From a virus, in IMG/VR virus record IMGVR_UViG_3300045950_000074, positions 1-29,942 of that record: a DNA stretch of 29,942 bases; one strand, given 5' to 3'. Positions 235 through 23,302 of this stretch are shown in pieces. The notes below the pieces were generated by a model. It did not search any database, was not told the DNA's origin, and saw only the letters and a list, made by a program, of their open reading frames with translations. The position numbers were made by a program, and so were the translations under genes. Every line of letters starts with the position of its first letter. Position 1 is the stretch's first letter.

Positions 235-3084
235 TCATTCCGCCCCGCGGGCTCCGCTGCAGTCATTGTGGCGATCCACGCCTTCAACTCGAGCCGCTTC
301 CCGAAAACTGATTTTCGACACGGAAGCCTTTCCAGTGCAATCAGGGAAGCGAACACAGCTGAAGAAGTCGCCGTAGCGCCCATGCTTCTCTACAAGCCAG
401 CCATCTGAGCACTTCGGGCATTCATGGTGGTTGGCCCCGCAATGTGAGCACTCGAGGATGCCTGACCGCCCCGAAACCGTTGGCATCCCGATCCCGCAAT
501 GACTGCAGGCGGGGATGAAATTGCTGCACATAAGACTGTGCTCGCATCTGTACCATATTCGGCCATCCCTGGCGGGCACGGCAAGCAAGCGCCCACCGCA
601 TTCACTGCATGGCACATGACTGGGCGTCGACCCGGTCGATGTCGCGAGGCCGTACTCAGTATCTGAAACCAATTCGCGCACAAAGCATGAGGGCTCGGCT
701 TCAGACGCCAGCAGCGTGACCGTCGAGCGCGCGCGAGTCATTGCCACATACATGATCCGCCGTTCCTCGGCGTGATGAAATGGCTCTCCTTCCGGTGAGA
801 CCAGGCTCAGGATCGGGTCGTCAGTGATTTCAGAAGGGAAACCATATTTGCCATTATTGCATCCAAGGATGACAACGTGATCGGCTTCCAGGCCCTTCGA
901 ACCGTGGATCGTCTTGAAGCTAAGTGACAGGCTTGGGAACCTTCGCCCGATAGCTATCATGTCGGGCCTCTCGTGACGGTACCTTGCCAAGAGAAGAACG
1001 CTGGTCACCTTCCCGGTGCTGCGATCCTCGGCGCCAAGTTCCGTCAGATTGGCCAAGATTTCCAGGAGTTCATCCTCCGGTTTGATCTTTTTCGTCCAAA
1101 CGACGCGCAGCGCCGGGCCTTTCGCTTCACCAGCCGGAATGATCGTCTTTTCGATCTGAGCAGGGTTTTGCAGAATGAAACGCCGCGCCGCCAGAGCGAT
1201 CTTGTCCACCGATCGGAAGGTGCGGCCAAGGTCTACGACTTGATGGATATCTTTCTCAGAGCCAAACTCGCCGCCGAACTTGGGGCCAAAGCTGCGCATG
1301 ATGTGGATGTCCGCACCCGCGAATCGGTAGATCGACTGCCAGTCATCCCCAACCGCGAAAATCCGGACATCCCCATGCTGCGCCTTTAAGGAGCTGACAA
1401 GACGCGCGCGATCTTGCGAGATGTCCTGGAACTCGTCGACGAGGATATGCCGGAACGGGCTTTGGTAAGCCCCGCTCTCAACATATCCGGCGGCCCGAAG
1501 AACCATGTCCTCGAAGTCGATCCTCGCACCCAGTTCATGCTGATATCGGCGGAGCACTGGCTCAAAAACAGCTAGAAACGCTTTGCCGCGCTCGCCCATG
1601 TTGAGCCTGTTCGCCTTTGATTGACACGCTGCTAGACTATAGCTGCCGCCCTTGAACTGAAGCAGGAACGTGCCAAGCAGCTGCGTAAAGCTATCGATAT
1701 GCCCCATCTCGACGACGCGGTCATAGATGGTCTCAATCGGTCGCGGCCGCAGCGTTATGTACGGACCAAGCTTTTCGGCCAACGCCTCGAGAAGGCGCCC
1801 TTCCTGACGTTCATAGCTGTAGGTTTCAATTAATTGAGTTCCAAAACTGGCATGGACTTTGCGTTTCCATTCCATCGACGCTAGGTATTCTTCACGGTCA
1901 ACGAATGGCGCAGTAACCAGACGATCCGGCAGACCAAAGAGCGATTTCTCCTTCCGGACGCCGAAATGTTCGAAATAGATGCCGCTCTCGGTCAGTCGAA
2001 AATCTGGGGTGTAGCCACGCCGACCCGAGTCTGGAAGCCGGTATTCGTACTGCGGCTCATATTCGTATTCGACGCCGTTTCGATACAACCAGTTGGCGAT
2101 CAGGAATTCTTCGTAGCTCCTGACCTTTTCGCCTTGAAGTGTACGAAGATTGAGGCTTTCGACGTGGGTATACCAAGCGTGCTTGGTCTCATAGTCCCAT
2201 TCGCTGCCGCATTCGATCGGGAACTGCGTGAACCAATCGACAATCACATTCGCGATTTTCTCGTCAGTCGCGACCAGCTGCCGAAGGATCCGGCGGATCA
2301 CGTCACAATACCGCTTCTGGTCCCCGGCATGTGAAGCAAGAGGAGGTTTCGTGCCCTCAACGTCGCCGATTATGTGGTAGGCCAACGCGTGGAATGTCCA
2401 CGCCTTGACCGGCAAGTTACACGCTCGGCCTATTCGCGTCGCCATCTCATTTGCGGCCTCTTTCCCAAAGGCCAAAGGAAGAATTTCGCCAGGCTCACGG
2501 ATACCCGATTTCAGCAGGTACGCGGCTTTGGCTGTGATGACGCTTGTCTTGCCTGACCCCGCACCAGCGAGAACGAGGGTGGCGTCTTCTTCGCTCAGTA
2601 CAGCGCGACGTTGTTCGGCAGTAAGCGGCTGGGACTCGACCCCATCGAGAAAGCGATCCCATCGCGCAAGCTCGCGCTCCAGTTGCGCCGCGATGGCGCC
2701 TTCCCTCGCGAGTTTGGGATCCTTCAAGAAGTCGTTGATCCGTTCGAAAGCCGCCTTGTCATCAATCATGCCTTCTAGGCGGACTAGTTCCTGCTTCAGA
2801 AAGCCTCGATATTTCGCTGCCTCTGAGAGGATCGGTGGCGTCACGCAAGCCGCGGGGTACCGAGAAGGTCTTTCAAGCCAGTCCAACGCCGCCGCCAGCT
2901 CGTGGTACTTTGCGACATCCCACTCAGTCTCCGGCCTCTGGTTCTCGCTTGCCTGAGGGAACAGGCTGAACTTCGAGAGGGTGTTGACGGGCCGATGCGA
3001 CGGATCCGAAGACGGCCGCCGCGATGCGCCGAAGAGTTCTCCGACCAGTCCGAAAACGGCGGCGCCGATCAGCCACTCAATCAT
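235..3084 (-). CDS. UvrD/helicase IV-like superfamily 1 DNA helicase with nuclease-like insertion and C-terminal zinc ribbons
   Basis: 949 aa with all core SF1A helicase motifs: Walker A GAGSGKT (174-180), Walker B DEFQD (550-554), motif III VGDDWQSIYRFAGAD (578-592), RTFRS (621-625), HGSKGLEAD (727-735) and YVAMTRAR (779-786). Between the 1A half and motif II, residues about 323-375 (SYEEFLIANWLYRNGVEYEYEP ... YTPDF ... YFEHFG) match the PD-(D/E)XK-like insertion known from the E. coli helicase IV (HelD) family. Residues 826-916 carry at least four CxxC-type pairs, as in topoisomerase-type zinc ribbons. The N-terminus (5-20) is hydrophobic. E. coli HelD is about 684 aa, so this is a longer, zinc-ribbon-bearing relative. 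Expected role is ATP-driven 3'-5' DNA unwinding in repair, or possibly phage/plasmid defence. The gene lies between the lysis end of the prophage and an IS66 end, so whether it is host or phage cargo is open. Confidence 0.88.
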   Translation of the reverse strand: MIEWLIGAAVFGLVGELFGASRRPSSDPSHRPVNTLSKFSLFPQASENQRPETEWDVAKYHELAAALDWLERPSRYPAACVTPPILSEAAKYRGFLKQELVRLEGMIDDKAAFERINDFLKDPKLAREGAIAAQLERELARWDRFLDGVESQPLTAEQRRAVLSEEDATLVLAGAGSGKTSVITAKAAYLLKSGIREPGEILPLAFGKEAANEMATRIGRACNLPVKAWTFHALAYHIIGDVEGTKPPLASHAGDQKRYCDVIRRILRQLVATDEKIANVIVDWFTQFPIECGSEWDYETKHAWYTHVESLNLRTLQGEKVRSYEEFLIANWLYRNGVEYEYEPQYEYRLPDSGRRGYTPDFRLTESGIYFEHFGVRKEKSLFGLPDRLVTAPFVDREEYLASMEWKRKVHASFGTQLIETYSYERQEGRLLEALAEKLGPYITLRPRPIETIYDRVVEMGHIDSFTQLLGTFLLQFKGGSYSLAACQSKANRLNMGERGKAFLAVFEPVLRRYQHELGARIDFEDMVLRAAGYVESGAYQSPFRHILVDEFQDISQDRARLVSSLKAQHGDVRIFAVGDDWQSIYRFAGADIHIMRSFGPKFGGEFGSEKDIHQVVDLGRTFRSVDKIALAARRFILQNPAQIEKTIIPAGEAKGPALRVVWTKKIKPEDELLEILANLTELGAEDRSTGKVTSVLLLARYRHERPDMIAIGRRFPSLSLSFKTIHGSKGLEADHVVILGCNNGKYGFPSEITDDPILSLVSPEGEPFHHAEERRIMYVAMTRARSTVTLLASEAEPSCFVRELVSDTEYGLATSTGSTPSHVPCSECGGRLLAVPARDGRIWYRCEHSLMCSNFIPACSHCGIGMPTVSGRSGILECSHCGANHHECPKCSDGWLVEKHGRYGDFFSCVRFPDCTGKASVSKISFREAARVEGVDRHNDCSGARGAE

Positions 3085-3120
3085 TACCTACACCGCCTAT
3101 CGTCGCCTGTTGAAGACCAG

Positions 3121-3165
3121 ACTTGGCCCGGCCAAGTGACGTTTGTACGACCGAAAACGTTCGGT
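3121..3165. repeat. Two short palindromes upstream of the helicase gene
   Basis: ACTTGGCCCGGCCAAGT (3121-3137) is a palindrome with 8-bp arms around one base. ACCGAA-AACG-TTCGGT (3150-3165) is a second dyad with 6-bp arms. They sit 36-81 bp upstream of the helicase start. Neither is followed by a T tract on the minus strand, so they look more like protein-binding sites than terminators. Function is unknown. Confidence 0.35.
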
Positions 3166-3241
3166 AATACGACGCCAGATTTTGGAGGTTGCTGGTCTGA
3201 TCGTGCAGGCTATGTCGAACAATCGGCGGTCCGTTGCGCAT

Positions 3242-3976
3242 TCAGATTTCGAAGAAGCGTTTGACGCCTAGAAGCGGCACCGCGCTCTCCCCAAGATAGG
3301 ATTTCTTGATCATATGACCGACAACAGTGCATCGGGCCATCTTTCCAAGTTTGCTGCCCATTCCAGACCGACTGAGAGCCAAGCTGAAGTCATTCAGCCC
3401 ATCGGTGATCTGGTCAGCAGCGGATCCTTCGACAAGACGATTTAGTCCTCCCCTGTAGAAACCTGGGGCTATTCCAGTTCGACGAACAAAAGCTTGAACA
3501 TATCCGTCTTCGCTGGAGCTCGCGGCGTCCAGCTCATAGGCAATGACGTCCATCGTGGCACCGTACTTGATGCTGACTGCGCTCACGAAGCGGCACGCAC
3601 AGACCATCAGAATCGGCGGAAGAAAACCGGTTTCGACAGAGCCCGCAGCCAAAGCAGCAAGGTTGTCCATGCCGAAACCGGCACGATCGGCGCCCTCCAA
3701 CATGTATAGCTGCTGCTCTGCCTTGGGGTGACCTATGGCCGCCGCCTTGTAGAAATTGTCCGCGGCAGCATCTAGGTCGAATGTGGGCAGATAGCCGCCT
3801 CCGTGCAGAAGAAACAGATTGTAATACGCTGAACCGTGCTCACCTTCGGCTGCACGGTTAAAGTGATCATAGGCACCTTGATAGTCTTTGGCGCTCACCG
3901 CCATGACGCCTGATCTGTATGCGTCCTCTGCCCGGGCATTTGAGCTCTTGAAGAATTGCTTTCCGAAAAGCGCCAT
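3242..3976 (-). CDS. Sel1/TPR-like repeat protein, function unknown
   Basis: The frame is open from 4093, but the first 39 residues look non-coding (Pro/Arg/Cys mix). I place the start at the ATG at 3976 (MALFGKQFFKSS), giving 244 aa; an ATG at 3991 is an alternative and neither has a clear Shine-Dalgarno. The N-terminal half holds Sel1/TPR-like helical pairs: AEDAYRSGVMAVSAKDYQGA, then FNRAAEGEHGSAYYNL, then AAADNFYKAAAIGHPKAEQQ. Such repeats bind protein partners. The C-terminal ~130 residues are not recognised. It is transcribed towards the helicase gene 157 bp away. Its GC is lower than that of the phage late genes, so it may be host DNA or cargo. Confidence 0.6.
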   Translation of the reverse strand: MALFGKQFFKSSNARAEDAYRSGVMAVSAKDYQGAYDHFNRAAEGEHGSAYYNLFLLHGGGYLPTFDLDAAADNFYKAAAIGHPKAEQQLYMLEGADRAGFGMDNLAALAAGSVETGFLPPILMVCACRFVSAVSIKYGATMDVIAYELDAASSSEDGYVQAFVRRTGIAPGFYRGGLNRLVEGSAADQITDGLNDFSLALSRSGMGSKLGKMARCTVVGHMIKKSYLGESAVPLLGVKRFFEI

Positions 3977-4157
3977 TTGGATGTGTTCCATCGAAAATGG
4001 GCGAGGATTGACCGCCCCGCGTTGATCTAGATGCGTGGAGCATTGAGAGTCAACGAGCGGGCGGGTCTGAACGCACCATGGCCTTGGCCGCACATCTCAT
4101 CGCCGATCGACGGCGAACCACTGCCACGAACCGAGAGGGCTTCGTCCAGCCCGGCTT

Positions 4158-4379
4158 TCACCGGCAAGCCCGCGCTTGATCGCGCAAGACAGAGTAGTCA
4201 GTGAGCATCCGGACGATGACCGCACCTTCCGGCAATGCCTCGACCTCGTCTGCCGCTCGAGCCTGATCGGCAGCGGTGTAGTCGACCACGGGCGGGCAGG
4301 GTGCTGGGACGTCAGAACCGCCCATCGCGCAACCGGCCAGCCAGAGCATCGCGATCAGGAGGGCGGCGGGCCGCCGCAT
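4158..4379 (-). CDS. Rz1-like outer-membrane spanin lipoprotein
   Basis: 73 aa starting MRRPAALLIAMLWLAGCAMG. It has a positively charged start, a hydrophobic core and a lipobox LAGC with the acylated Cys at residue 17, followed by a Pro-rich stretch (PAPCPPVVDY) and a short helical C-terminus. These are the hallmarks of o-spanins (lambda Rz1). The frame is open upstream to 4454, but only the start at 4379 puts the lipobox in a normal signal-peptide position. It overlaps the 3' end of the Rz gene by 68 nt in another frame, the usual nested or overlapping spanin arrangement. With the inner-membrane partner it would fuse inner and outer membranes in the last step of lysis. Confidence 0.78.
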   Translation of the reverse strand: MRRPAALLIAMLWLAGCAMGGSDVPAPCPPVVDYTAADQARAADEVEALPEGAVIVRMLTDYSVLRDQARACR

Positions 4380-4557
4380 CGAGCATCCGTCGGTGAATGG
4401 CATCGTTTCTCTCTTGGGCATCAAGCCGTTCGGCAGCACGCCCGGCGCGTTCACCGGTACGACGCAAGTTCAGCAGGAACAGCAGGATCGCGGCGGCGGT
4501 GAGCATCAGGCCCAGCGCCTTGCGCGCCGGGCCATGGGTGAGGAGCCAGCCGATCAC
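4312..4557 (-). CDS. Rz-like inner-membrane spanin
   Basis: 81 aa with one N-terminal membrane segment (about residues 15-30, ALGLMLTAAAILLFLLNL), followed by a long charged, likely coiled-coil helix (RRTGERAGRAAERLDAQERNDAIHRR, split here only as a description of residues 31-57). This is the layout of i-spanins: anchored in the inner membrane with a periplasmic coiled coil that meets Rz1. The start codon is a GTG at 4557 that overlaps the TGA of the endolysin gene (GTGA), which implies translational coupling. It is shorter than lambda Rz (153 aa), as is common in alphaproteobacterial phages. Confidence 0.72.
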   Translation of the reverse strand: MIGWLLTHGPARKALGLMLTAAAILLFLLNLRRTGERAGRAAERLDAQERNDAIHRRMLDAAARRPPDRDALAGRLRDGRF

Positions 4558-5228
4558 CGCTGACCCCTGCTCCAGTCGTCGAGCCGCGCGTGGATCGTGA
4601 CGGCGATACCGATCAGAGCGATGGCGATCAGCACCCAGCGCAGGGTGTCCAGATAGGGCACCAGCGGCTGGATGATGGACTGGGTTTCCGTGAGAACGTC
4701 CTGCAGCACCTCCACGCCCGCGGCCCCCACAGTCGCTGCCCCAGCCGCACCGCCACCGCGCAGCGTGCGGCTTTCGGCTAGAACCTCGCGCGCAGGCGGC
4801 AGTTCCGGCGCGAAGGGCACCGGCCGCACTGGGAAAGGATCGCCCCAGGACCGGGCTGGCCCGAGATCGATGTGCATGAAGCCAGAGCGGGGATAATAGC
4901 CGAAGCCGAGGAACCCGACCGCCCGCGCCGCCGCCTCGAAGGCCACCGGATCGTGGTTCGCCATGGCGATGTCAAAGGCGGTCGCCTGCATGTGCTTGGA
5001 CGCCGGGGCCCCGCCGACGGCGCGGTTGTGTTCCGGGCTGCGATAGGCGGATCGGACGATCATCGGCTTGCCCAGCCGGTCACGCAGGGCCTGCAGCTTG
5101 TCCATGGCCTCGGTGTTGATCTTGATCGCGCCGGTGCCGCGGCAGGCGATCTCGGCGGGCGAAAAGCTCGGCCAGCGCCAGGCCCTCTCGGGGACGTTGC
5201 GCCAGGTGGGAAAGGACAGGGTTGGCAT
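4554..5228 (-). CDS. M15A-type peptidase endolysin with C-terminal membrane anchor
   Basis: 224 aa. The N-terminal ~135 residues are a peptidase M15A (D,D-carboxy/endopeptidase-like) domain: YRSPEHNRAVGG (62-73), then the zinc motif SKHMQATAFD with H79 and D86, then FMHIDLG with H119. Such enzymes cut peptide cross-links of peptidoglycan. After a Pro-rich linker (about 135-165), residues ~197-214 (WVLIAIALIGIAVTIHA) form a membrane helix, so this is probably a membrane-tethered endolysin. The start at 5228 is set by a strong Shine-Dalgarno (GGAGG, 7-8 nt upstream). It is the first gene of the lysis cassette and lies just after a hairpin terminator. Confidence 0.85.
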   Translation of the reverse strand: MPTLSFPTWRNVPERAWRWPSFSPAEIACRGTGAIKINTEAMDKLQALRDRLGKPMIVRSAYRSPEHNRAVGGAPASKHMQATAFDIAMANHDPVAFEAAARAVGFLGFGYYPRSGFMHIDLGPARSWGDPFPVRPVPFAPELPPAREVLAESRTLRGGGAAGAATVGAAGVEVLQDVLTETQSIIQPLVPYLDTLRWVLIAIALIGIAVTIHARLDDWSRGQR

Positions 5229-5246
5229 GGGGAATCCTCCAAATGG

Positions 5247-5269
5247 AAAAACCCGCCGAAGGGCGGGTT
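5247..5269 (-). terminator. Rho-independent terminator between the tail genes and the lysis cassette
   Basis: On the minus strand AACCCGCC (5269-5262 side) pairs with GGCGGGTT (5257-5250 side) around a 4-nt loop, and five T residues run through the 3' arm and out of it. It is 37 bp after the stop of the DUF6127-like gene and only about 20 bp before the endolysin start. Late transcription would have to pass it (leaky or antiterminated) to reach the lysis genes unless these have another promoter. Confidence 0.7.
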
Positions 5270-5305
5270 GGATGGTCGTTCAGGGTCGATAATGGTGCAG
5301 CCCCG

Positions 5306-5596
5306 TCAGGGCGCGCTGCCAAAGATCTTCAGCTTCAGCGCTATCCCTGCGAGCAGCGCCAGGATCACGCCGGTGGTGATCAGGTGGACCGCGCTCTGGA
5401 CGGCAGTGCGGCGCACGAAGCGGATGGCATCGAGCAACGCACGGAGATCGCGGATGTCGAGGGCGGCTTCCTTGCCGTCGAGGCCAGCGTCGGCCAGCGC
5501 GCGCCTGGCCCCTTCTTCGGCTGCCCGAGCCAGCAACTCCTCGAATTCGGCATCCGGCATGCGGACATGGCCCTCTCCGGAACGGCGCGGGCTCAT
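5306..5596 (-). CDS. Small membrane protein, DUF6127-like; holin candidate
   Basis: 96 aa. The N-terminal two thirds are charged and helical (MPDAEFEELLARAAEEGARR, then DIRDLRALLDAIRFVRRTA). The C-terminus is a single membrane segment (about 70-90, LITTGVILALLAGIALKLKIF). It resembles DUF6127 proteins of alphaproteobacterial prophages as I remember them. The start at 5596 overlaps the upstream stop (ATGA), which favours it over the internal Met13. Its position just before the endolysin and its membrane helix make a holin role possible, but nothing in the sequence proves it. Confidence 0.68.
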   Translation of the reverse strand: MSPRRSGEGHVRMPDAEFEELLARAAEEGARRALADAGLDGKEAALDIRDLRALLDAIRFVRRTAVQSAVHLITTGVILALLAGIALKLKIFGSAP

Positions 5597-6591: not shown

Positions 6592-7454
6592 GGCAGTTCC
6601 ACTTCGATGTAGAGGTTGGCTTGCGTCCAGGTGGCACCACGACCGCCACCCTGTTCGAGGAAGAGCGCGGTATCGGCGACGGTGAGATGTGCCCCGCCGC
6701 CCCGGCTGATCCAGAGGGAGGCGCCTGCGACGCTGAGGCCGCGATCCCAGCCGATCTCGAGGAAGGCTGCGGCGTCGAAGACGCGGAGGTCGGGATCGAG
6801 GTAACCCAGCGCCGTCGCACCCGGAGGCACGGGGTAGCTGAACTGGGAGGGCAACGAGCGGATCGTGCCGCCGTCGCCGGGATTGCGCCCCTGGACCTGT
6901 GGGTAGAAGCCGGGACTTCCGCCCGCTGTCCAGGTCGCGGCCCCGCTCACAGGATCGTCGCGCCAGATGCCGTTCTTGCCGATCCAGAGGCGGCCGAGGG
7001 CCGGGTCGAGGACGAACATCAGCACATCATTCGCGCCGAAGGTGGGCAGACCGGTCAGGCGTTGTTCGGCAGTTGCGGTGGCCGAGGACCAGAGCGCCCC
7101 GGTGCCACGCCAGCCGATCGAGCCCAGCGTGATGGGGTTGAGGCCTGCATTGAACTCCTCGCGCTGCGCGGCCGCGACGACGCCCATGTAGCCGTCGAAG
7201 GTGGCGGCGCCCGGGGCGCAGAGAACTTCCCAATAGCGCCGCCCGTCTGTCGGCAGGATCGCCTTGGCGGTCGGCACCCAGCTGCGATAATCGCTGCCGC
7301 CCGAGTTGTTGACTGCGGTCTGAATACCGTTCGACAGGGTATAGCCCGCGGGACGGCGGGTGGTGTCCAGCTGCCAGACCGCTCCGATATCGACCGGGGG
7401 CGCAGCATCCCCGCCTTGGGCGAGAATGGCGCCGCGCATCATCAGAAGGCTCAT
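6588..7454 (-). CDS. SPRY-like domain phage tail appendage protein
   Basis: 288 aa. The start at 7454 (MSLLMMRGAILAQ) overlaps the DUF2793 gene stop by 4 nt (ATGA); the same frame is open upstream, but that part is a shadow of DUF2793. Residues ~65-190 resemble a SPRY/B30.2 domain: RRYWEVLCAP, GYMGVVAAA, SIGWRGTGALWS, then DVLMFVLDPALGRLWIGKNGIW. The C-terminal ~80 residues contain three short beta-type repeats (FLEIGWDRGLSVAGASLWIS and relatives). SPRY folds bind proteins or glycans. The position suggests a virion surface or receptor-binding part. Confidence 0.65.
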   Translation of the reverse strand: MSLLMMRGAILAQGGDAAPPVDIGAVWQLDTTRRPAGYTLSNGIQTAVNNSGGSDYRSWVPTAKAILPTDGRRYWEVLCAPGAATFDGYMGVVAAAQREEFNAGLNPITLGSIGWRGTGALWSSATATAEQRLTGLPTFGANDVLMFVLDPALGRLWIGKNGIWRDDPVSGAATWTAGGSPGFYPQVQGRNPGDGGTIRSLPSQFSYPVPPGATALGYLDPDLRVFDAAAFLEIGWDRGLSVAGASLWISRGGGAHLTVADTALFLEQGGGRGATWTQANLYIEVELP

Positions 7455-8128
7455 GCGACGGCTCCCGCCAGCGCGCCCTGGATGATCCAGGCATCCGCCC
7501 CGCGCTTGACGAGGGCGGCCCCCGACCACTGACCGTCGAGGGCGACCGATCCGCCCACAATGCCATTCAGCGAAACTCCGGCCGCAGCCGTCACTGTCGC
7601 GACCCCGGCGCCAACCTGTGTCACGTTGATCAGCGCGCCGATCTCGAAGGGAACGGAGGCCTCCGCCGGGATCGTCACGGTGACGGCCGAGGACCCGGTG
7701 GTCTCGAGGATGCAGCCGAGATCGACGGCTTCCAGCGTGTGGCTGGTCGCGGTCAGGGTCCGGATGCGCACGATGCCTGGACGTGGCACCTCGACCCACG
7801 CCCCGGCGGTGAAACGCACATGCCGCGCCTCATCGACGATCCAGACCTGCCAGCCCTCTTGCGGGGGCAGATAGACCCAAGCCGCGGCGCCGGCTGGCGA
7901 CTGGTCCCAAAGCGCCAGCGCATTGGCGTTGACCCCGGCTGCGGCGGGCACGATCAGCATCTGGCCCGTGCTGCCCGTTGCAGGCAGCGTCGTGGTGCGG
8001 GAGGTCGCGCGCGCTTGCACGACGGCCGAGAGGCGGCGCAGGTCTTCGCTGAGGCTGGTGCCCCAGTTGCGCTGGCCGGGATCGTAGAAGGCGCGCAGCC
8101 CCAATCCCGGCATGATCCGTTCCGGCAT
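7451..8128 (-). CDS. DUF2793 domain-containing phage tail protein
   Basis: 225 aa. N-terminal GLRAFYDPGQRNWGTSLSEDLRRLSAVVQA and the following ALALWDQSPAGAAAWVYLPPQEGWQVWIVDEA match the DUF2793 family of alphaproteobacterial phages and gene transfer agents. Those proteins are virion parts near the tail tip. The C-terminal half is Val/Thr/Gly-rich beta structure. The start at 8128 is 33 nt after the stop of the tail-tip gene. The biochemical role is unknown; adhesin or baseplate function is inferred from context. Confidence 0.75.
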   Translation of the reverse strand: MPERIMPGLGLRAFYDPGQRNWGTSLSEDLRRLSAVVQARATSRTTTLPATGSTGQMLIVPAAAGVNANALALWDQSPAGAAAWVYLPPQEGWQVWIVDEARHVRFTAGAWVEVPRPGIVRIRTLTATSHTLEAVDLGCILETTGSSAVTVTIPAEASVPFEIGALINVTQVGAGVATVTAAAGVSLNGIVGGSVALDGQWSGAALVKRGADAWIIQGALAGAVA

Positions 8129-8161
8129 GCTCGTCCTCGTTCGTTATTGTGAATTCCAGGG

Positions 8162-11100
8162 TCAGGTGCCCCAGAGGAACCCCCAGCCGCGGTCCCATCC
8201 GGCGGCAAACGGTGCCGTCAGCCGAAACCAGCGCGCTTCGCGATCCGTGACCCAGCTGCCCTCGACCAGACGCCGCGAGCGGACGGCCAGTTCGATCTCG
8301 GCCGTGCGATCCGGCGCGCCGAGTTCCGGGATGGCCTCGGGCGCGAGGATCCAGTTTGCAGCGGTCCCTGCATCGATGACGACGCCCGCAGGCAGGATGG
8401 CCGCACCGGTGTCCGGGTCTACCCAGCGCACCTCAACGATGTAGCTGACCCCCGGCTCCGGCCCGATGGAGGCGCCGGTGTGGTCGACGATCACGGGGCT
8501 GGTCTGGGTCAACCGGTCCCGATGCGTCCAGGTCAGGGCGAGAGGGCCCATGACCAGTCCATCGACATTCGGGGCATAACTGCCGTTCCCTTGCACGCGC
8601 CCTGGCGGCAAGGGGCGAATAGCGCGGCGGTCGAGCGTCACGGCATCTTCGGGCGCCAGTGCGAATGCCAGCGTGCCGCGGCCGGTCTCGGGCAGAAGCC
8701 GCGCGGCCAGCGTCTCGCCAGCCGCCCAGCTGTCCTCGGTGATCCGTGCCACGTCGTCGAAGAAGATGACCGGCGTGCCGGAGGTGTGCGCGCGCGGAAC
8801 GGTGTCGAGACAGCCCCGGCCGACGGTGATGCTGGTCGGCGTGATGCCGTCGACGCGGACCAGTTCGCCATCGATGCTGGCGAGAGTGCCGATCTCGACC
8901 TCGCCGATATCGCGCCAGCCGGTGACCGGGATCACGCGCGCCTCCGGGCTGTCGGTCACATCCGCAGCGAGCAGCGCCGTTGGGGCGAAAGCGACGATAC
9001 CTTCCTGCGCGGATCCGGTACCGGGATCGATCCAGAGCTGGGCCGCCAGCGCATCGGCGCTGGGGCGTTCGCCGGTGGCCACGAGCGCGCCCGCGTCCGG
9101 ATCCTCGGCGAGGCGGCGGTCGGCCTCGCTGTGGCCAAGCTCGCGGACGAGAAGCCAATACGGCGCTTCCTCGACCATGCGGCTTGCCAGTGCTCGCGGC
9201 GGGGCGGCGACACCGGCGCCGGTCGGCATCCGCCCGCCCGCGATTGCGGTCGCGCCCAGCGCGAAGACGTCTTCGGCAATCTTGAGCCGGATGCCGTTGT
9301 CGCGTCCGTCACCCTGGCCGATCTCGGAAATCCGCATCACGATGTCATCGAGACCCAGCCGCGTCGAACGCAACCGGATCACATCGCCCGGCCCGAGGTC
9401 AGAGCCCTCGCGATTGACGACGATCTCGCCCGTCAGGAGGGGGGCGGACAAGGCACGCAGGTCGCGCTCGGCCACGCGCACGGCGAGCCCCTGATAGCGG
9501 ATGCCGGGATAGTCGAGCGTGGTGGCCAGAACCTCTCCCATCGCCTGGACGCGGGCGGTGTCTGTCACTGAAACCGCCCCAGTGTCATCCGTCCAGGCAT
9601 CGGTGAACCGCACCGTGACGCTGTTCACCAGATCGGAGGGCGACCTGCGGCCAAGACGCCCCCAGTCCACGACATTGGTCTCATCGAACAGGGGCAGCGT
9701 TGCGGGTGAGTAATCCGCGCGGATCAGCTTCAACTCCCAGAGTCCGGTGCGCCGGTCGATGAACAGCGTGGCATCGATATGGTCGAGGACGCTGGCGATG
9801 AACTCCTCGATGGAGGAGTCCTGCTGCCAGATCAGCGAGAGGCCGAAGCCCTCAGTATAGAGTGTATCCGCCGCCCCCGTGAAGCTCGCGCCGATCTCGA
9901 CCGAGGAGTGTCCCAGACCCCAGTCGCGGTTGGTGAGGCATTCGCGGATGATGTGGGCCGGGTTCATGTCCGGGCCGTTGCCGAAGGCGCCGCGCAGGGA
10001 AGCGATCAGCGCCTGCGGGTTGCCGGGCGGGATCACCGGCACGCCGTCCACAGGCGTGTTGTCGATCTGGGCCGTGTAGGACGTGTTCGCGAGCGAGATG
10101 TTGAAGCCGAAGATGTCAGCAGGCGGCAGGGTGCGGATGATTGCCAGCGCCGCATCGACCGAGGAGACTGGCGATGGCTCACCATCGGTCACGAAGATGA
10201 CGATCCGGCGTTTGGACCCACCACCCGCGAAGAAGGCATTTGCTTCCGCGAAGGCCGCGTTGAAGCTGGTGCCGCCATTGGTGAAGTTCGAGAGCCCCAG
10301 CATCCAGGTCTCGAGCGCGGCATAGTCCGCAGGCCCCATGTTGCGGCGTTCGATGGACCCGGCGACCGCCACGTTCCAGAGGACAATGCGGATGTCGTTC
10401 GGCCGGTCGGGGTCCACGCCCGCCGCGATCTCGCGGATGAGGGCGGCGACGCCTGCCTTCTGTGCCGACATACGTGTGCCCGACATGGAGCCCGAGACGT
10501 CGAGGGCGATGTAGATCGCCGCATCCGAGATATTGGCCTCTGGCACGATGGCCGCCTTCTCGGGATACCATTGCGCTGCGCCTGCCTCGCCGGTCAGCAC
10601 GCGGGTGACCCGCACCGCCCATGGCTTCAGATACGGGTTGATGCCGAGATAGACCTGCCGCAGCACGAGGCTGCAGAGGCCGCGATAGGCGGGAACATCC
10701 CCGCCCATGCGTGCGGCCAGATAGTCGTTCGGCCCCTGGCCCGGCCCGCCCATCAGCACATCGACATCGCCGCGGATGCCACCTTCTCGGCTCTCGCCGC
10801 CGAAGAGGTCGGGTTTGTCGATCCGGATGCGGCCGCCACCCGCGCCGGTATTGCTGGCGCCGGTTGTGGCCTCGAAGACCTCTACCGATTGCGCCGAGAA
10901 GCTCAGCGCCTCGGGCAGGACGGACCAACGTGTAATGTTGGTCGCGGCATCGAAGGTGACGGCTTGCAGGGTGATCGTTTGGCTCGACCCGTTGGCGAGG
11001 GCGAGGCGGTAGTCGCGACCGATGCGGACGCCCGCGCGGGTGCCGGGGAAGCTGAGCGTTGCGCCCGTGTCGCCTGCCAGTGCTGCCGTGGCGGCCATGC

Positions 11101-11296
11101 TTGCGACGGTGCCGATGCGCATCTCGACCGCTGCGCCGCCGCCTCCGGAAGAACCCCCGCCAGTCGTGACGGACCAGGCGGTGCGACGGTCGACGAGAAT
11201 CTCGCGGATGGCGTCGACCGGCCCGTGACAGAGCGCCAGATGCACACCCAGCGAATAGCGGTAGCCGACGGTCTGGGCCTTGCTCCTACCGCCCAT
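8162..11296 (-). CDS. Tail-tip (gpJ-like) attachment protein with an embedded vWA/MIDAS domain
   Basis: 1044 aa from the ATG at 11296, preceded by AAGGGG 6 nt upstream; an upstream GTG in the same frame (11335) is less likely. The N-terminus (MGGRSKAQTVGYRYSLGVHL, then HGPVDAIREILVD) is typical of siphophage tail-tip proteins of this module. Residues ~253-442 form a von Willebrand A domain with an apparently complete metal-ion-dependent adhesion site: DVSGSMS (266-272), Thr in NGGTSF (343) and VTDGEPS with D371. The tail-protein sequence resumes at HIIRECLTNRDWGLGHS and continues through hub-like and beta-rich repeats (VAERDLRALSAPLLTGEIVV, GPGDVIRL) to a C-terminal surface region. The tail-tip role follows from size, family look and position; the vWA domain suggests metal-dependent binding of a receptor or partner. 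Confidence 0.82.
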   Translation of the reverse strand: MGGRSKAQTVGYRYSLGVHLALCHGPVDAIREILVDRRTAWSVTTGGGSSGGGGAAVEMRIGTVASMAATAALAGDTGATLSFPGTRAGVRIGRDYRLALANGSSQTITLQAVTFDAATNITRWSVLPEALSFSAQSVEVFEATTGASNTGAGGGRIRIDKPDLFGGESREGGIRGDVDVLMGGPGQGPNDYLAARMGGDVPAYRGLCSLVLRQVYLGINPYLKPWAVRVTRVLTGEAGAAQWYPEKAAIVPEANISDAAIYIALDVSGSMSGTRMSAQKAGVAALIREIAAGVDPDRPNDIRIVLWNVAVAGSIERRNMGPADYAALETWMLGLSNFTNGGTSFNAAFAEANAFFAGGGSKRRIVIFVTDGEPSPVSSVDAALAIIRTLPPADIFGFNISLANTSYTAQIDNTPVDGVPVIPPGNPQALIASLRGAFGNGPDMNPAHIIRECLTNRDWGLGHSSVEIGASFTGAADTLYTEGFGLSLIWQQDSSIEEFIASVLDHIDATLFIDRRTGLWELKLIRADYSPATLPLFDETNVVDWGRLGRRSPSDLVNSVTVRFTDAWTDDTGAVSVTDTARVQAMGEVLATTLDYPGIRYQGLAVRVAERDLRALSAPLLTGEIVVNREGSDLGPGDVIRLRSTRLGLDDIVMRISEIGQGDGRDNGIRLKIAEDVFALGATAIAGGRMPTGAGVAAPPRALASRMVEEAPYWLLVRELGHSEADRRLAEDPDAGALVATGERPSADALAAQLWIDPGTGSAQEGIVAFAPTALLAADVTDSPEARVIPVTGWRDIGEVEIGTLASIDGELVRVDGITPTSITVGRGCLDTVPRAHTSGTPVIFFDDVARITEDSWAAGETLAARLLPETGRGTLAFALAPEDAVTLDRRAIRPLPPGRVQGNGSYAPNVDGLVMGPLALTWTHRDRLTQTSPVIVDHTGASIGPEPGVSYIVEVRWVDPDTGAAILPAGVVIDAGTAANWILAPEAIPELGAPDRTAEIELAVRSRRLVEGSWVTDREARWFRLTAPFAAGWDRGWGFLWGT

Positions 11297-11516
11297 TGTC
11301 TGCCCCTTCGTTTGCAGCGAGGTTTGTCGCCTCACGCATCTCGGCCTGCAGGATCACCGGTTCCACCAGCGCGTCGCCCGTGGCGCGCAGGGTCTCCGCC
11401 TCGATGCCGCCATCGAGAAACGCCTGCCAGTCAAGCCCATGCCGCCGAAACCATGGCCGCACGCCTGCAAGGCAGTAGCGTGCCGCGCGCAGGTCCTGGA
11501 TCGTCACGCGGGTCAC
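11286..11516 (-). CDS. Small tail-tip assembly factor, function unknown
   Basis: 76 aa (VTIQDLRAARYCLAGVRPWF ... ATGDALVEPVILQAEMREA). Similar small proteins sit just before gpJ-like genes in alphaproteobacterial prophages, as I recall them. A predicted mostly helical soluble protein without catalytic motif. The start is a GTG at 11516 overlapping the upstream TGA by 4 nt, and the 3' end overlaps the tail-tip gene by 11 nt. The packed arrangement and conserved position suggest a tail-tip assembly or chaperone role, which is inference. Confidence 0.62.
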   Translation of the reverse strand: MTRVTIQDLRAARYCLAGVRPWFRRHGLDWQAFLDGGIEAETLRATGDALVEPVILQAEMREATNLAANEGADNGR

Positions 11517-11831: not shown

Positions 11832-12692
11832 TCAGACGATGGAACTGCCGCCGAAGGGGTTGCGGCCTGGGATCTCGGGAAAGCCGCCGAAGTTCGCGAG
11901 GTTGCTGAACTTGGCCGCACAGGTGGCCGCGCGCAGGTCGCAACCGGGGGCGATATCGGCTGCCACAGGCAAAGGGCTACCGGTCTCGGGTTCAACCTCG
12001 GGGGCTGTGAGGGCTGCCGCTAACTCGGGCATTGGCCGAGAAAGCGTGAGGATTGTACCGACATGGCCGGTGACGAACCCAAGCTGCGCCCCAAACCTCA
12101 GCACCCCACCCCGAAACCAGCCATCGGGTTGGCCAGCTGCCTCCGGGATGGTCAGGGCGTTGCCAGCGACGGCCGTCACGGTGCCGGTCTGCCAGTGGAA
12201 CGCGATGTCGAGCCTGCAACCACGGCCGTAAAGCGCGTGGCGGCAAAGGCGCTGGTACTTTGCGCGGACACCTGCCCGGCGCAGGGTGCTGAAGACGGAC
12301 TCACAGTTCAGCAAGATCCGGACGCCCTCGACCTCGGCCCCGACCACGCGGCCTTTCCAATGCGCCACCGTCTCGCCCAGAACCTGCTCATGGCCACGGA
12401 AGATGGTCAGCGTGACAGGCGTGTTGCCCAAGGGCGCAAGAAACCGGCGCGCAAAGGAATGCGACAGAGGCCAGGTAAGTTCCAGCCGCCCTCGCTCGAT
12501 CTCGCTCGTCTGCATGACATCACCATGCGCGACTGCCGCCGCTTCCCAGCTGATTGTGTCGCCCTCGCTGGCTGCACTGGTCCAGTCGGTGGCCCGGCTG
12601 GTGAAGCGCCAGACCTGATCGCCCTCGACGAACTGGTAGAGATAGTAGGGGCGGCCCTCGGCGGTCGAGGACTCGATGGTGGTGTAGGTCAT
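11832..12692 (-). CDS. DUF2163/phage BR0599-type tail hub protein
   Basis: 286 aa. The N-terminal part (YYLYQFVEGDQVWRFTS; SEIERGRLELTWPLSH) and the C-terminal signature PGCDLRAATCAAKFSNLANF followed by GGFPEIPGRNPFGG match the DUF2163/BR0599 family. In the Rhodobacter gene transfer agent a family member forms the tail hub, and four cysteines there are reported to hold an iron-sulfur cluster. Four candidates are present here (C150, C159, C251, C258). No Shine-Dalgarno is visible before the ATG at 12692, unlike most genes here. This fits an ancestral coupling to the distal-tail gene that has been broken by the inserted accessory DNA. No NlpC/P60 gene follows, in contrast to many related modules. 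Confidence 0.85.
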   Translation of the reverse strand: MTYTTIESSTAEGRPYYLYQFVEGDQVWRFTSRATDWTSAASEGDTISWEAAAVAHGDVMQTSEIERGRLELTWPLSHSFARRFLAPLGNTPVTLTIFRGHEQVLGETVAHWKGRVVGAEVEGVRILLNCESVFSTLRRAGVRAKYQRLCRHALYGRGCRLDIAFHWQTGTVTAVAGNALTIPEAAGQPDGWFRGGVLRFGAQLGFVTGHVGTILTLSRPMPELAAALTAPEVEPETGSPLPVAADIAPGCDLRAATCAAKFSNLANFGGFPEIPGRNPFGGSSIV

Positions 12693-12878: not shown

Positions 12879-13337
12879 CTATGAGCTGCGTCGAGGCATG
12901 CCAAGGCGGTGCCAGCCGTTCAACGCATCCTTCATTTCGAACTGACCACCCGGGGTGTAAAACTTACGGTGAAACCAGAATAGGCGCTCTTCCTCCGGCT
13001 TTTCAGACAGAGTGCCAGGATCACGCATTTTATGCGCGAGGATTTCTTCCAATGAGATCACATAGCAGGCGATCTGTGGTGTACGTGCAAAGACTACAAA
13101 GACCCACCAGGGCGTTACCAGCTTTTCAGGGCTCAGCCCTAGGCGAGTATCCTGTGGTGTGCCGCTGTGAGCTTTGACCTGAATGGGATGGATGGTGCGT
13201 TCGTCCTCTGATGCCGCGAATAGGTCAGCGCCGCGTGCATTCCGGACAGTGGGCATAACGTTCCAGCCGGCAAGTGAAAGCTCGCGGGCCACGTGATAAA
13301 GACCGATATTTCCCGTTATCTGTTGATCGTTGCTCAC
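12879..13337 (-). CDS. Accessory PD-(D/E)XK-like nuclease-fold protein
   Basis: 152 aa from a GTG at 13337 (VSNDQQITGN) with AAGGGG about 6-9 nt upstream. The N-terminal half has the layout of a PD-(D/E)XK nuclease core: a helix GNIGLYHVARELSLAGWNVM, then NARGADLFAAS with D38, then HPIQVKAHSG with Q53 and K55 (D-x14-QxK). The remainder (WWVFVVFARTPQIACYVISLEEIL) fits the final strands and helices. It resembles small predicted endonuclease or Holliday-resolvase-like proteins; the substrate is unknown. It lies in the tail operon between the remnant of a distal-tail gene and the hub gene, in DNA of lower GC, so it is cargo (moron or defence), not a virion part. Function is inferred from motif pattern only. 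Confidence 0.6.
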   Translation of the reverse strand: MSNDQQITGNIGLYHVARELSLAGWNVMPTVRNARGADLFAASEDERTIHPIQVKAHSGTPQDTRLGLSPEKLVTPWWVFVVFARTPQIACYVISLEEILAHKMRDPGTLSEKPEEERLFWFHRKFYTPGGQFEMKDALNGWHRLGMPRRSS

Positions 13338-13386: not shown

Positions 13387-13488
13387 TCGTGGATCATTCC
13401 GATGTTAGGCCATTCCACAAGGATCAACTCTGGACTTGAGCTCTGCATGCCAAACGGACTCTGCCCGGTCCATGTATCTCTCGGACGT

Positions 13489-13587
13489 TCAGGCCTTTAC
13501 CTCCACGACCGGCAGGGTCACCTCACTCGCCACCGCCCCATGCCGGATCTCGATCCGATCTGCATCCGACCGCACCAGCGCCAGGAA
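13489..13587 (-). pseudogene. Displaced 3' end of the distal-tail gene
   Basis: Bases 13499-13587 align without gaps to 14756-14844, the 3' end of the intact tail gene, with 80 of 89 positions identical by hand count. Read on the minus strand they encode FLALVRSDADRIEIRHGAVA followed by SEVTLPVVEVKA and a TGA at 13491-13489. Within the aligned part nearly all base differences are silent (one Thr-to-Ala change). So the fragment evolved as coding sequence before being cut off. Upstream of 13587 the similarity stops abruptly and the HNH cassette begins. It has no start codon of its own. Confidence 0.88.
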
Positions 13588-13650
13588 CCCTAGGGACGAG
13601 CGCGGCTACACGACCGGTATGGCAGTCGCGGCTTCCGCAGAAGCAAAGTC

Positions 13651-14580
13651 TCAAGGACGGATCGGTGTCTCACGGTCCATGTGCGCATCAGCATCAATGC
13701 CACGTTGGTCAAGCATCTTTCGAGCGCAGCGGACAACGCAGCCTTTCATACCATTGCGGACGGCGTTTTCTCCGTGAACCTTGTCACCGAGCTTGAACCA
13801 GCGCGCCTTTCCGTTGATCGGAGGAATGTTGACATAGCCCTTGCTGATGTAGGCCCCTGGGAAAAAGAACGCCTCAGCATCCAAAGTGATTGTTCCCTCG
13901 GGTCCACAGTGGAGCCTCGGGTTGCCTCTTTCAACTTTCGTGGCGGACTTCACACGAGATGGCGCAGCCTGACGCAGGCGTTCAAGGCCGTCGAAGTTCG
14001 ACGCAATCGGCGGCCGCAAGCGGGGATCTTCGATGTCGAGCTGGCGAAGTGTGAAGCGATCCTTGCCAAAATTGCACAGCGCGCATGTGATCACGACGTT
14101 GTCGACGGAAGATTTCCCTCCATGACTATGCGGCTCCACATGATCAAACTGAAGCCACGTTGCCGCAAAAGCTGCATGCATTTCAGCTGCGACGCGAGGA
14201 TTCCAGGGCACCTCCCCAGGATAAAGCTGTCGCGCGATCTTCCTGATATCAGCGTGAACAACTGGTAGGGAGCAGTAGCGGCAACGGTAACCATCTCTGG
14301 CAAGTACCGCCTGTCTGATCCATGGAGCAATATTGCGATCGGGATCGCGCTCAGCTTTCGGGATTACTCGCGTGTCACCCTCCGGGCTCATGACGACGAC
14401 ATGCTTGATCACTCCGGCCCAGCCCGTGTTCAGCCATTCCGATGTCACCGGGCAATTCGCCTCTTTGAATTTAGCGGCGGCAAGCTCCAGGTCGCCTTCG
14501 AGGTGGGCATCAGCGGCAGCTTCAAGAGCGGCAATGGAAGCGTAGACCTCCGGAAGGGGTTGCCTAATACAGGAACGCAT
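13651..14580 (-). CDS. HNH endonuclease, probable homing-type cassette
   Basis: 309 aa from the ATG at 14580 with AAGGGA 6 nt upstream. The central HNH domain is clear: RDGYRCRYCSLPV with C100 and C103, QFDHVEPHSHGGKSSVDNVV with D146, H147, H151 and N161, then CALCNFGKD with C166 and C169. The CxxC pairs bind structural zinc, and the HNH residues form the nuclease centre. The N-terminus (1-80) and C-terminal ~110 residues (ERGNPRLHCGPEG; GAYISKGYVNIPPINGKARW) are not recognised and may be target-binding parts. The gene sits between two copies of the 3' end of the tail gene, in lower-GC DNA. This is the position expected of a free-standing mobile endonuclease. A defence nuclease is an alternative. 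Confidence 0.85.
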   Translation of the reverse strand: MRSCIRQPLPEVYASIAALEAAADAHLEGDLELAAAKFKEANCPVTSEWLNTGWAGVIKHVVVMSPEGDTRVIPKAERDPDRNIAPWIRQAVLARDGYRCRYCSLPVVHADIRKIARQLYPGEVPWNPRVAAEMHAAFAATWLQFDHVEPHSHGGKSSVDNVVITCALCNFGKDRFTLRQLDIEDPRLRPPIASNFDGLERLRQAAPSRVKSATKVERGNPRLHCGPEGTITLDAEAFFFPGAYISKGYVNIPPINGKARWFKLGDKVHGENAVRNGMKGCVVRCARKMLDQRGIDADAHMDRETPIRP

Positions 14581-14745
14581 TTGTTTCCCTTCTTATTTCC
14601 GCTGTTCTCCCTCAAGTAAGCCAAGTGAAGTCAGCCTTGGCAATGAAGAATGTTTTGCTTGAAGATGGGCGTGGGTCATGAATGGCAAACTCCCATGTTG
14701 TCCGCTACGCTGACATCATCCCTCTAGATTTTGCAGGGCACGGTT

Positions 14746-15906
14746 TCACGCCAGCACCTCCACAACAGGCAGGGTCACCTCACTGGCCACAGCCCCATGC
14801 CGGATCTCGATCCGGTCCGCGTCTGACCGCACCAGCGTCAGGAAATGCACCTTCGTCCCGATGGCCACCGACTCGCCGAGGCTGGAGGATATCGTCAGCC
14901 GATGATCGGCACTGTCAACTACCGCAGCGTTGATTGTCCGGAACCGCAACCCGCTCGGCATCTCGAGCAGGATCGCGCGCCCGACATAACCCGCCAGGTC
15001 CGTGATAGGCGCCACGCGCATCAGCGTGGAACCGGAGGTCATGGCCGCACGCAGTTGCAGTTCGCGACCCCAGGTCGGCAACCAGAAGCTGGCTTGTCGG
15101 CCGCGCAGCGACCACAGCCAGCGGCGTAGTGCCCAACGTTCCGACGCGCCTTGCGCCTTGAGGGTGATCGCCTCGCCCCTCTCGAACAGATCACGCAGCG
15201 GTTCGACCACGACCGGCCCGAAGCCGTTGTCGACGTATTCGACGGCGCGGCGCAGACTGGCGGTGATCGGCGAACGGGTCAGGCTCGGGTCGGTCTGGAC
15301 CGGACGGCCGAGATAGGTCGGCATGACCGTTGCGGACAGATCAGGAGCATCGCGCAGCAGGAAGGTGGCAGTCACCATGCCGTCATTCTGGCGACGACGT
15401 GCGATCTCGACAGAGGCTGACAGAACGCCCGCCCGCACCGGCGCAACGGCGATGCGCGCAGCAGCTACGATTGCTGCAGGCAGCTGCGCACCCAGCGGTT
15501 CCACCAGGATCAGCCGATCCGCCCCGACATCAGCGATCTCCGCGACCGACGCCTCGCGTCCGTCCACCACGACGGCCACGGCGTCCCCTGCCCGGAAATC
15601 CGCCGCCGTGGTGTCGAAGGCAATCTCCGTTGCCCCCTGCGCCACATCCGCCGTCGGCTGCACCGCCATGTGCCAGAGCGGCACCTGCCATTCCGCTGCA
15701 AACCCCGCCCGCGCCAATTCGGCCGCCCGCGCCATGCCCAGCGCGTCGCAGCGATGCTGGAAGGTGACGATCTCCAGCGGACGGGACCGCAGCGCGATGC
15801 GCTGTTCGCCCGCCTGGGACTGCAGCACATCCGTGCGCCATTCCAGAACCTCGGTGATCTCCTGCGCTGCCAGAAAGGGCCAGAGGGACTCAGGCATTGA
15901 TGGCAC
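14746..15906 (-). CDS. Distal tail structural protein
   Basis: 386 aa, N-terminus MPESLWPFLAAQEITEVLEW, with beta-rich segments, a motif GREASVAEIADVGADRLILV and a C-terminal half containing RDLFERGEAITLKAQ and WALRRWLWSLRGRQASFWLPTW. Such proteins of about 380 residues lie between tape measure and DUF2163 hub genes in related siphophage modules and are virion proteins; a distal-tail role is inferred from that position. The start at 15906 overlaps the tape-measure stop by 17 nt. The last 32 codons exist a second time, displaced, at 13489-13587, so the 3' end of this gene was duplicated or replaced when the HNH cassette arrived. Confidence 0.72.
   Translation of the reverse strand: MPSMPESLWPFLAAQEITEVLEWRTDVLQSQAGEQRIALRSRPLEIVTFQHRCDALGMARAAELARAGFAAEWQVPLWHMAVQPTADVAQGATEIAFDTTAADFRAGDAVAVVVDGREASVAEIADVGADRLILVEPLGAQLPAAIVAAARIAVAPVRAGVLSASVEIARRRQNDGMVTATFLLRDAPDLSATVMPTYLGRPVQTDPSLTRSPITASLRRAVEYVDNGFGPVVVEPLRDLFERGEAITLKAQGASERWALRRWLWSLRGRQASFWLPTWGRELQLRAAMTSGSTLMRVAPITDLAGYVGRAILLEMPSGLRFRTINAAVVDSADHRLTISSSLGESVAIGTKVHFLTLVRSDADRIEIRHGAVASEVTLPVVEVLA
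14756..14844 (-). repeat. 89-bp direct repeat, copy within the intact distal-tail gene
   Basis: Partner of 13499-13587, same orientation, offset 1257 bp, about 90% identical. The pair brackets the HNH gene. Recombination between the copies would remove the cassette and leave an intact chimeric 3' end. Confidence 0.88.
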
Positions 15907-22921: not shown

Positions 22922-23302
22922 TCAGGCGCCGTCGCGGGCGACGATGCCGACCGCGGCCAGCTGGCCGATCTTGGCGGCGATCTTGGTGCCGTCATCGACC
23001 GTCGCGCCGTAGGCGAGGGCCGCGCGCGACACGATCGAGGGGCCGCGCACGAGGACGATACCCACGGCATCGGCCAGCGTCGCATCGACGGCATAGAGCA
23101 GGACTGCCGTTGCGACCTGCGATCCGTCGGCTCCGGTCGCGGGCGACAGCGTGTACTTGCCGCTGGCCGTGATCTTCCCCAGCACCGAGCCGACGGGATA
23201 GGGCATGCCCGCGAGCAGGGTGATCACCTCGCGGGTGTAGTTCGGGTTGACCTCATATTTGAGGACGTCGCCCATGCTGGGCGGTTCCGTCAGGACGGGC
23301 AT
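22922..23302 (-). CDS. Head decoration protein, lambda gpD family
   Basis: 126 aa: VLTEPPSMGDVLKYEVNPNY followed by REVITLLAGMPYPVGSVLGK and a small beta fold ending KIGQLAAVGIVARDGA. The opening and the pattern of G-x-V-L-x-K strands are those of gpD-type trimers that bind and stabilise the expanded capsid. Lambda gpD is 110 aa. It lies between the protease/scaffold gene and the major capsid gene, the canonical C-Nu3-D-E order. Confidence 0.85.
   Translation of the reverse strand: MPVLTEPPSMGDVLKYEVNPNYTREVITLLAGMPYPVGSVLGKITASGKYTLSPATGADGSQVATAVLLYAVDATLADAVGIVLVRGPSIVSRAALAYGATVDDGTKIAAKIGQLAAVGIVARDGA

Follow-up and report, generated by a model that had tools for sequence, protein, structure and literature searches.

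A displaced tail-gene end beside an HNH gene at a cargo-insertion hotspot of a Rhodobacterales phage

The window analysed here, a 29,942-nt stretch of viral DNA from a Rhodobacterales phage (IMG/VR record IMGVR_UViG_3300045950_000074), carries between its tail gene and its baseplate hub gene a second, displaced copy of the tail gene's 3' end, located behind an HNH nuclease gene. In this phage group the tail-hub junction acts as a hotspot for the insertion of cargo. Most likely, the displaced end is a scar left by insertions stacked there, and not proof of a self-moving nuclease. We consider it probable, although well short of assured, that two insertions were stacked at the hotspot and that the newer one replaced the end of the tail gene by one-sided recombination.

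The displaced end and its intact counterpart

All of the features in this region lie on the minus strand, in the order tape measure, tail gene (P0002), HNH gene (P0001), displaced tail end, second cargo gene (P0003) and hub gene (P0004). The tail gene (14746..15906) is intact and encodes 386 aa with the terminus ...VEVLA-stop; it matches phrog_1082 ('tail assembly protein'/distal tail) at 6e-91. Its stop is separated from the start of the HNH gene (13651..14580; 309 aa; PF01844) by a spacer of 165 bp (14581..14745) without a match in any tail-hub relative, and G+C falls to 47% in a block of 150 bp at the boundary between the tail and HNH genes, as against 61-71% in the tail gene. A second spacer of 63 bp (13588..13650) leads from the HNH stop to the displaced tail-gene 3' end (13489..13587), which comprises 33 codons including the stop, lacks a start and terminates in ...VEVKA-stop. 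P0003 (12879..13337; 152 aa), which was absent from the first-pass annotation of this DNA, follows the displaced end and precedes the hub gene. The hub gene itself (11832..12692; phrog_778 and PF09356, with TIGR02218 just under cutoff) forms the far flank of the insertion site. Cargo has a G+C content of 52-61% and the tail and hub genes one of 61-71%, and both cargo genes of the window are lower in G+C than the tail genes; no sigma-70 promoter or terminator was found above chance in the region. Elsewhere on the same strand (8162..11335), a 1057-aa tail protein contains a von Willebrand factor A domain (PF13519, residues 275-386).

The displaced and intact ends form a long direct repeat (13488-13587 and 14745-14844) of 100 nt with 87% identity and a spacing of 1257. 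The first-pass annotation had described 89 bp of this repeat, and it is real: over that length the copies agree at 80/89 positions (~90%), they are offset by 1257 bp, and the HNH gene lies between them. The displaced copy is, however, about 10 bp longer than had been stated and includes its own in-frame TGA. Taken in register with the final 33 codons of the tail gene, stop included (14746..14844), which served as the reference copy, it is identical at 86/99 positions over 99 nt. Local alignment of the tail 3' end with the insert gave a score of 73, and the best of 20 shuffles scored 15, which excludes a chance origin. The translated ends read FLALVRSDADRIEIRHGAVASEVTLPVVEVKA (displaced) and FLTLVRSDADRIEIRHGAVASEVTLPVVEVLA (intact), each followed by the stop.

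The divergence between the two ends is allele-like. Their 13 nucleotide changes comprise 10 synonymous and 3 non-synonymous ones, where about 33% synonymous changes would be expected under neutrality (P=0.0015), so that the differences are mostly silent, as had been noted at first pass. Over 87 nt, the displaced end shares 97.7% identity with the tail-gene end of a cassette-free relative, L001 (Tabrizicola sp. TH137), the relative that also matches the whole tail gene best. For the intact end the identity to L001 is 89.7%, and the two ends of the window are ~90% identical to each other over 87 nt. Because the changes are mostly silent and the displaced end is closer to L001 than the intact end is, the two ends look like diverged alleles that were brought together, each functional while diverging, and a recent duplication is disfavoured. 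In a tree of the 3' ends, which had 96 columns only, the two window ends stood apart, yet a sister relation was not rejected by the AU test (p=0.16); their non-sister status is favoured by these comparisons, not proven. The first-pass annotation had argued against a simple recent duplication and had expected the displaced end to be nearest to the local lineage. Both views agree with the affinity to L001, and the former also with the silent changes, but both are tempered by an AU test that allows the sister relation. A recombination breakpoint was sought within the tail gene, where the pattern was mosaic with no clear breakpoint.

The tail-hub junction in relatives

Relatives gathered from genome and viral collections provided 92 distinct tail-hub junctions. 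The junction is empty in 58 of the 92, and in 54 of these the stop and start of the two genes overlap by 4 nt (ATGA). The remaining 34 are filled; their inserts measure 585-5219 bp and form 18 clusters, or about 18 types. The two genes thus abut in relatives and receive unrelated inserts at the same point, as expected of a hotspot. A search of relatives for cassette-free junctions had been proposed at first pass, and the 58 empty junctions are its outcome. Cultured Pamexvirus/Bosavirus relatives (PaMx74, DLP4) likewise have a tight tail-hub junction.

The cargo includes enzymes (alpha/beta hydrolases, methyltransferases, an acyltransferase, an arginase, GNAT and a tRNA synthetase) as well as an SBF transporter, CNNM, DUF305, DnaJ, and LysR and HTH regulators. 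The majority is host-like, and the nuclease-like minority consists of GmrSD, HNH_2 and the window. The inserts of L166/L198, L165/L171, L153/L164 and L022/L183 share their terminal flanks, 30-118 bp just after the tail stop (left) and 100-200 bp just ahead of the hub start (right), and have cores without a tblastx match to each other. Common flanks around unrelated cores point to a platform-like exchange of cassettes by homologous recombination. Flanks common to other inserts were sought in the window and were absent from it. L155 was considered as a stack of two left flanks, a reading that was rejected because the flank of L166 aligns with L155 along its entire length.

Several loci differ in other ways. 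Where the junction holds an insert (for example in L020, L022, L165 and L175), the hub gene lacks ATGA coupling and its start often lies behind a C-rich run (...CCCCCATGACC). The first 300 tail codons of L228/L231 (G313:C1, ~4300-5500) are inverted in the operon relative to the last 80; the ends of the inversion lack inverted repeats, and it is probably the mark of a decaying prophage or of an assembly fault. L110 (Pseudorhodobacter turbinis plasmid NZ_CP039965.1, locus 2500-5500) is a prophage remnant in which the hub gene is missing and a deletion has joined tail codons 322-386 to a gene like that at 22922-23302 of the window; behind them, DUF305-like cargo lies between left and right flanks of the L166 insert type. 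Close relatives of these tail genes are also found in MAGs labelled Peregrinibacteria and Burkholderiaceae (L014, L025), probably as a result of binning contamination.

The cargo genes and a second displaced end

The HNH protein P0001 matches PF01844 (8e-07) and HNH_5, and its CxxC/CxxC and DH...N...N motif is intact. D146, H147, N161 and N170, together with four zinc-type cysteines, are invariant across seven of its relatives. An AlphaFold model of the protein alone reached a pLDDT of 35 and was set aside. With an intact nuclease motif, a position next to a conserved gene and absence from close relatives, P0001 has features of a free-standing homing endonuclease. Recurrence of its family at the same target in different lineages was not seen in the sampled collections, where P0001 was found in 0 of the other 33 inserts and at 0 loci retrieved by tail or hub gene. 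Relatives of P0001 (E <1e-20) are present in 8/395 genomes of the family, with 36-71% identity over the matched part, and they are solitary, at unrelated chromosomal positions; the nearest, at 71% identity, lies in a host chromosome. No gene-end repeats were found near the gene around these chromosomal relatives, although the contig of the nearest one stops just downstream of it. A search of viral contigs found no relatives of P0001 or P0003, and neither cargo protein had a match in a defence-system library.

The relatives of P0003 keep D38 and Q53-x-K55, the PD-(D/E)XK core pattern, and a weak Mrr_cat_2 match (E 0.03) was obtained for one of them only; these features fit the prediction of P0003 as a PD-(D/E)XK nuclease-like protein. 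A relative of the HNH protein and a relative of P0003 occur ~2 kb apart in one host island (L131; G348:C8, locus 7353-10714). An exonuclease-like gene is clustered with them there, and the island is possibly a nuclease or defence island.

A second scar is found in L106 (IMGVR_UViG_3300037604_000088), where the order of tail gene, new cargo, displaced tail end, old cargo and hub gene reproduces the anatomy of the window. The tail gene of L106 has an altered end, and its new cargo of ~750 bp contains an HTH_3 regulator and no recognised nuclease. The displaced tail 3' end (219 bp, 91% identical, with one 1-bp insertion) keeps the native ...TTACAATGA terminus, and the old cargo ahead of the hub gene is 3.6 kb long and includes a histidine kinase. 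The breakpoint lies at about codon 312, as against about codon 355 in the window. In the tree the two tail ends of L106 are sisters (99/96), and duplication is possible there. When displaced tail ends or displaced hub 5' ends were sought in all inserts at the nucleotide and protein level, they were found in the window and L106 only (2/34). An HNH_2 insert at the same junction (L055/L164) has no displaced tail end, so that the presence of a scar does not follow that of an endonuclease. Since the scar of L106 accompanies HTH cargo and has another breakpoint, the scar is, judged from the sequences of the sampled loci, independent of the HNH gene and of a single cut site. The first-pass annotation had named relatives with both 3' copies and no HNH gene as evidence against its own reading; L106 is such a relative as far as the role of the nuclease is concerned, though it represents a different event.

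Origin of the scar and comparison with known systems

Under stacked insertion, an ancestor would have had the P0003 cargo (12879-13337) already in place between a tail gene ending in ...VEVKA-stop and the hub gene. The incoming DNA would have consisted of the tail 3' end of a related phage and the HNH gene. One side would have been joined by homologous recombination inside the tail gene, and the other would have met the resident tail gene at about codon 354/355, without homology. With the donor's end the tail gene would have stayed complete, and the final 33 resident codons would have been stranded behind the HNH gene, ahead of the older cargo. Selection for a working tail could have permitted the survival only of those inserts that brought a complete gene end. 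What we infer here is the sequence of the two insertions, the one-sidedness of the recombination and the role of the HNH gene as a passenger; no relative was found in which the junction holds the P0003 cargo alone or the HNH gene alone, and the two insertion steps are therefore not seen separately. A displaced end of this kind is a readable scar, which records the order of insertion and lets donor and recipient alleles be compared directly. It also shows how cargo can enter between two structural genes that are tightly coupled (ATGA overlap) and leave the upstream gene unbroken.

The same anatomy could have been produced by intronless homing, in which the HNH protein would cut a cassette-free tail gene near codons 354/355, repair would copy the donor 3' end together with the HNH gene, and the far side would be sealed with no homology, so that the recipient's own end would persist. 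The conserved catalytic residues of the HNH protein, the closeness of the displaced end to a cassette-free relative and the likeness to fungal mitochondrial endonuclease elements, which have a foreign C-terminus and the native one ~1 kb downstream (PMC3630166), are all consistent with homing, and T4-type phages are known to harbour free-standing homing genes of the HNH kind (PMC2988022). We nevertheless regard homing as unlikely, considering that this HNH gene is in none of the other inserts or retrieved loci, that its relatives occupy unrelated chromosomal sites without repeats, that L106 has the same scar at a different breakpoint and no recognised nuclease, and that the HNH_2 insert has no displaced end. 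The first-pass annotation had proposed a cassette that carried its own gene end and displaced the resident one. Replacement of one allele by another is supported by the silent changes and the affinity to L001, but its attribution to HNH-driven homing does not hold up against the scar of L106, the roughly 18 mostly non-nuclease insert types and the solitary occurrence of the HNH family in chromosomes. The evidence points to a general recombination hotspot rather than to HNH-driven movement.

Tandem duplication of the tail-hub junction in one genome, with later divergence, would account for two copies in the same orientation on either side of one insert; it is compatible with the AU test (p=0.16), and the two ends of L106 are sisters. 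However, a start-less fragment would not be expected to show 10/13 silent changes (P=0.0015), nor would a displaced end be expected to resemble L001 (97.7%) so much more closely than the intact end of its own genome (~90%) over 87 nt, and we judge such a duplication highly improbable. An assembly chimera, with two metagenome phages joined at a shared tail 3' end, is conceivable in that the DNA comes from a virus record and related phages occurring together would have this sequence in common. Yet no homology that could drive a mis-join is present where the HNH spacer meets the displaced copy, both copies persist with unique flanks, and the same architecture is seen independently in L106, all of which makes a chimera barely credible.

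Mobile endonuclease ORFs with a foreign C-terminus are described in fungal mtDNA at Allomyces atp6 and at Glomus atp6, atp9, cox2 and nad3, where the native 3' end lies ~1 kb downstream, is closest to the local lineage and differs mostly by silent changes (PMC3630166). The window has in common with these elements an intact gene that has received an incoming 3' end and is followed first by an endonuclease ORF and then by the displaced native end. The fungal elements, however, are of the mitochondrial LAGLIDADG/GIY-YIG types and are found at conserved genes repeatedly with the endonuclease (PMC3630166), whereas the HNH gene of the window is an isolated case, and its site receives cargoes of many unrelated kinds and has, in L106, a second scar without a recognised nuclease. 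It is decidedly doubtful that a phage HNH element which cuts the 3' end of a structural gene and swaps in its own end is at work here as a prokaryotic counterpart of the fungal elements. If the HNH protein were the driver, a mechanism of fungal mitochondria would carry over to phages.

Free-standing homing endonucleases of T-even phages, such as segF, segG and mobE, move by intronless homing, and as in the window an HNH or GIY-YIG gene lies between conserved phage genes and is patchy among relatives; several of these enzymes were shown to be active and site-specific, and the excerpted account notes no displaced gene end (excerpt of PMC2988022). Unlike them, the HNH gene of the window has no recurrent site, and its endonuclease role is predicted.

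Phage morons and prophage cargo hotspots consist of foreign genes of differing composition, on either strand, between structural genes that abut in relatives. The window resembles them in having genes of foreign composition between two such structural genes. Unlike morons, an insert at this junction can bring a new end for the structural gene next to it, the former end persisting as a scar, and some of the inserts have common terminal flanks around exchanged cores.
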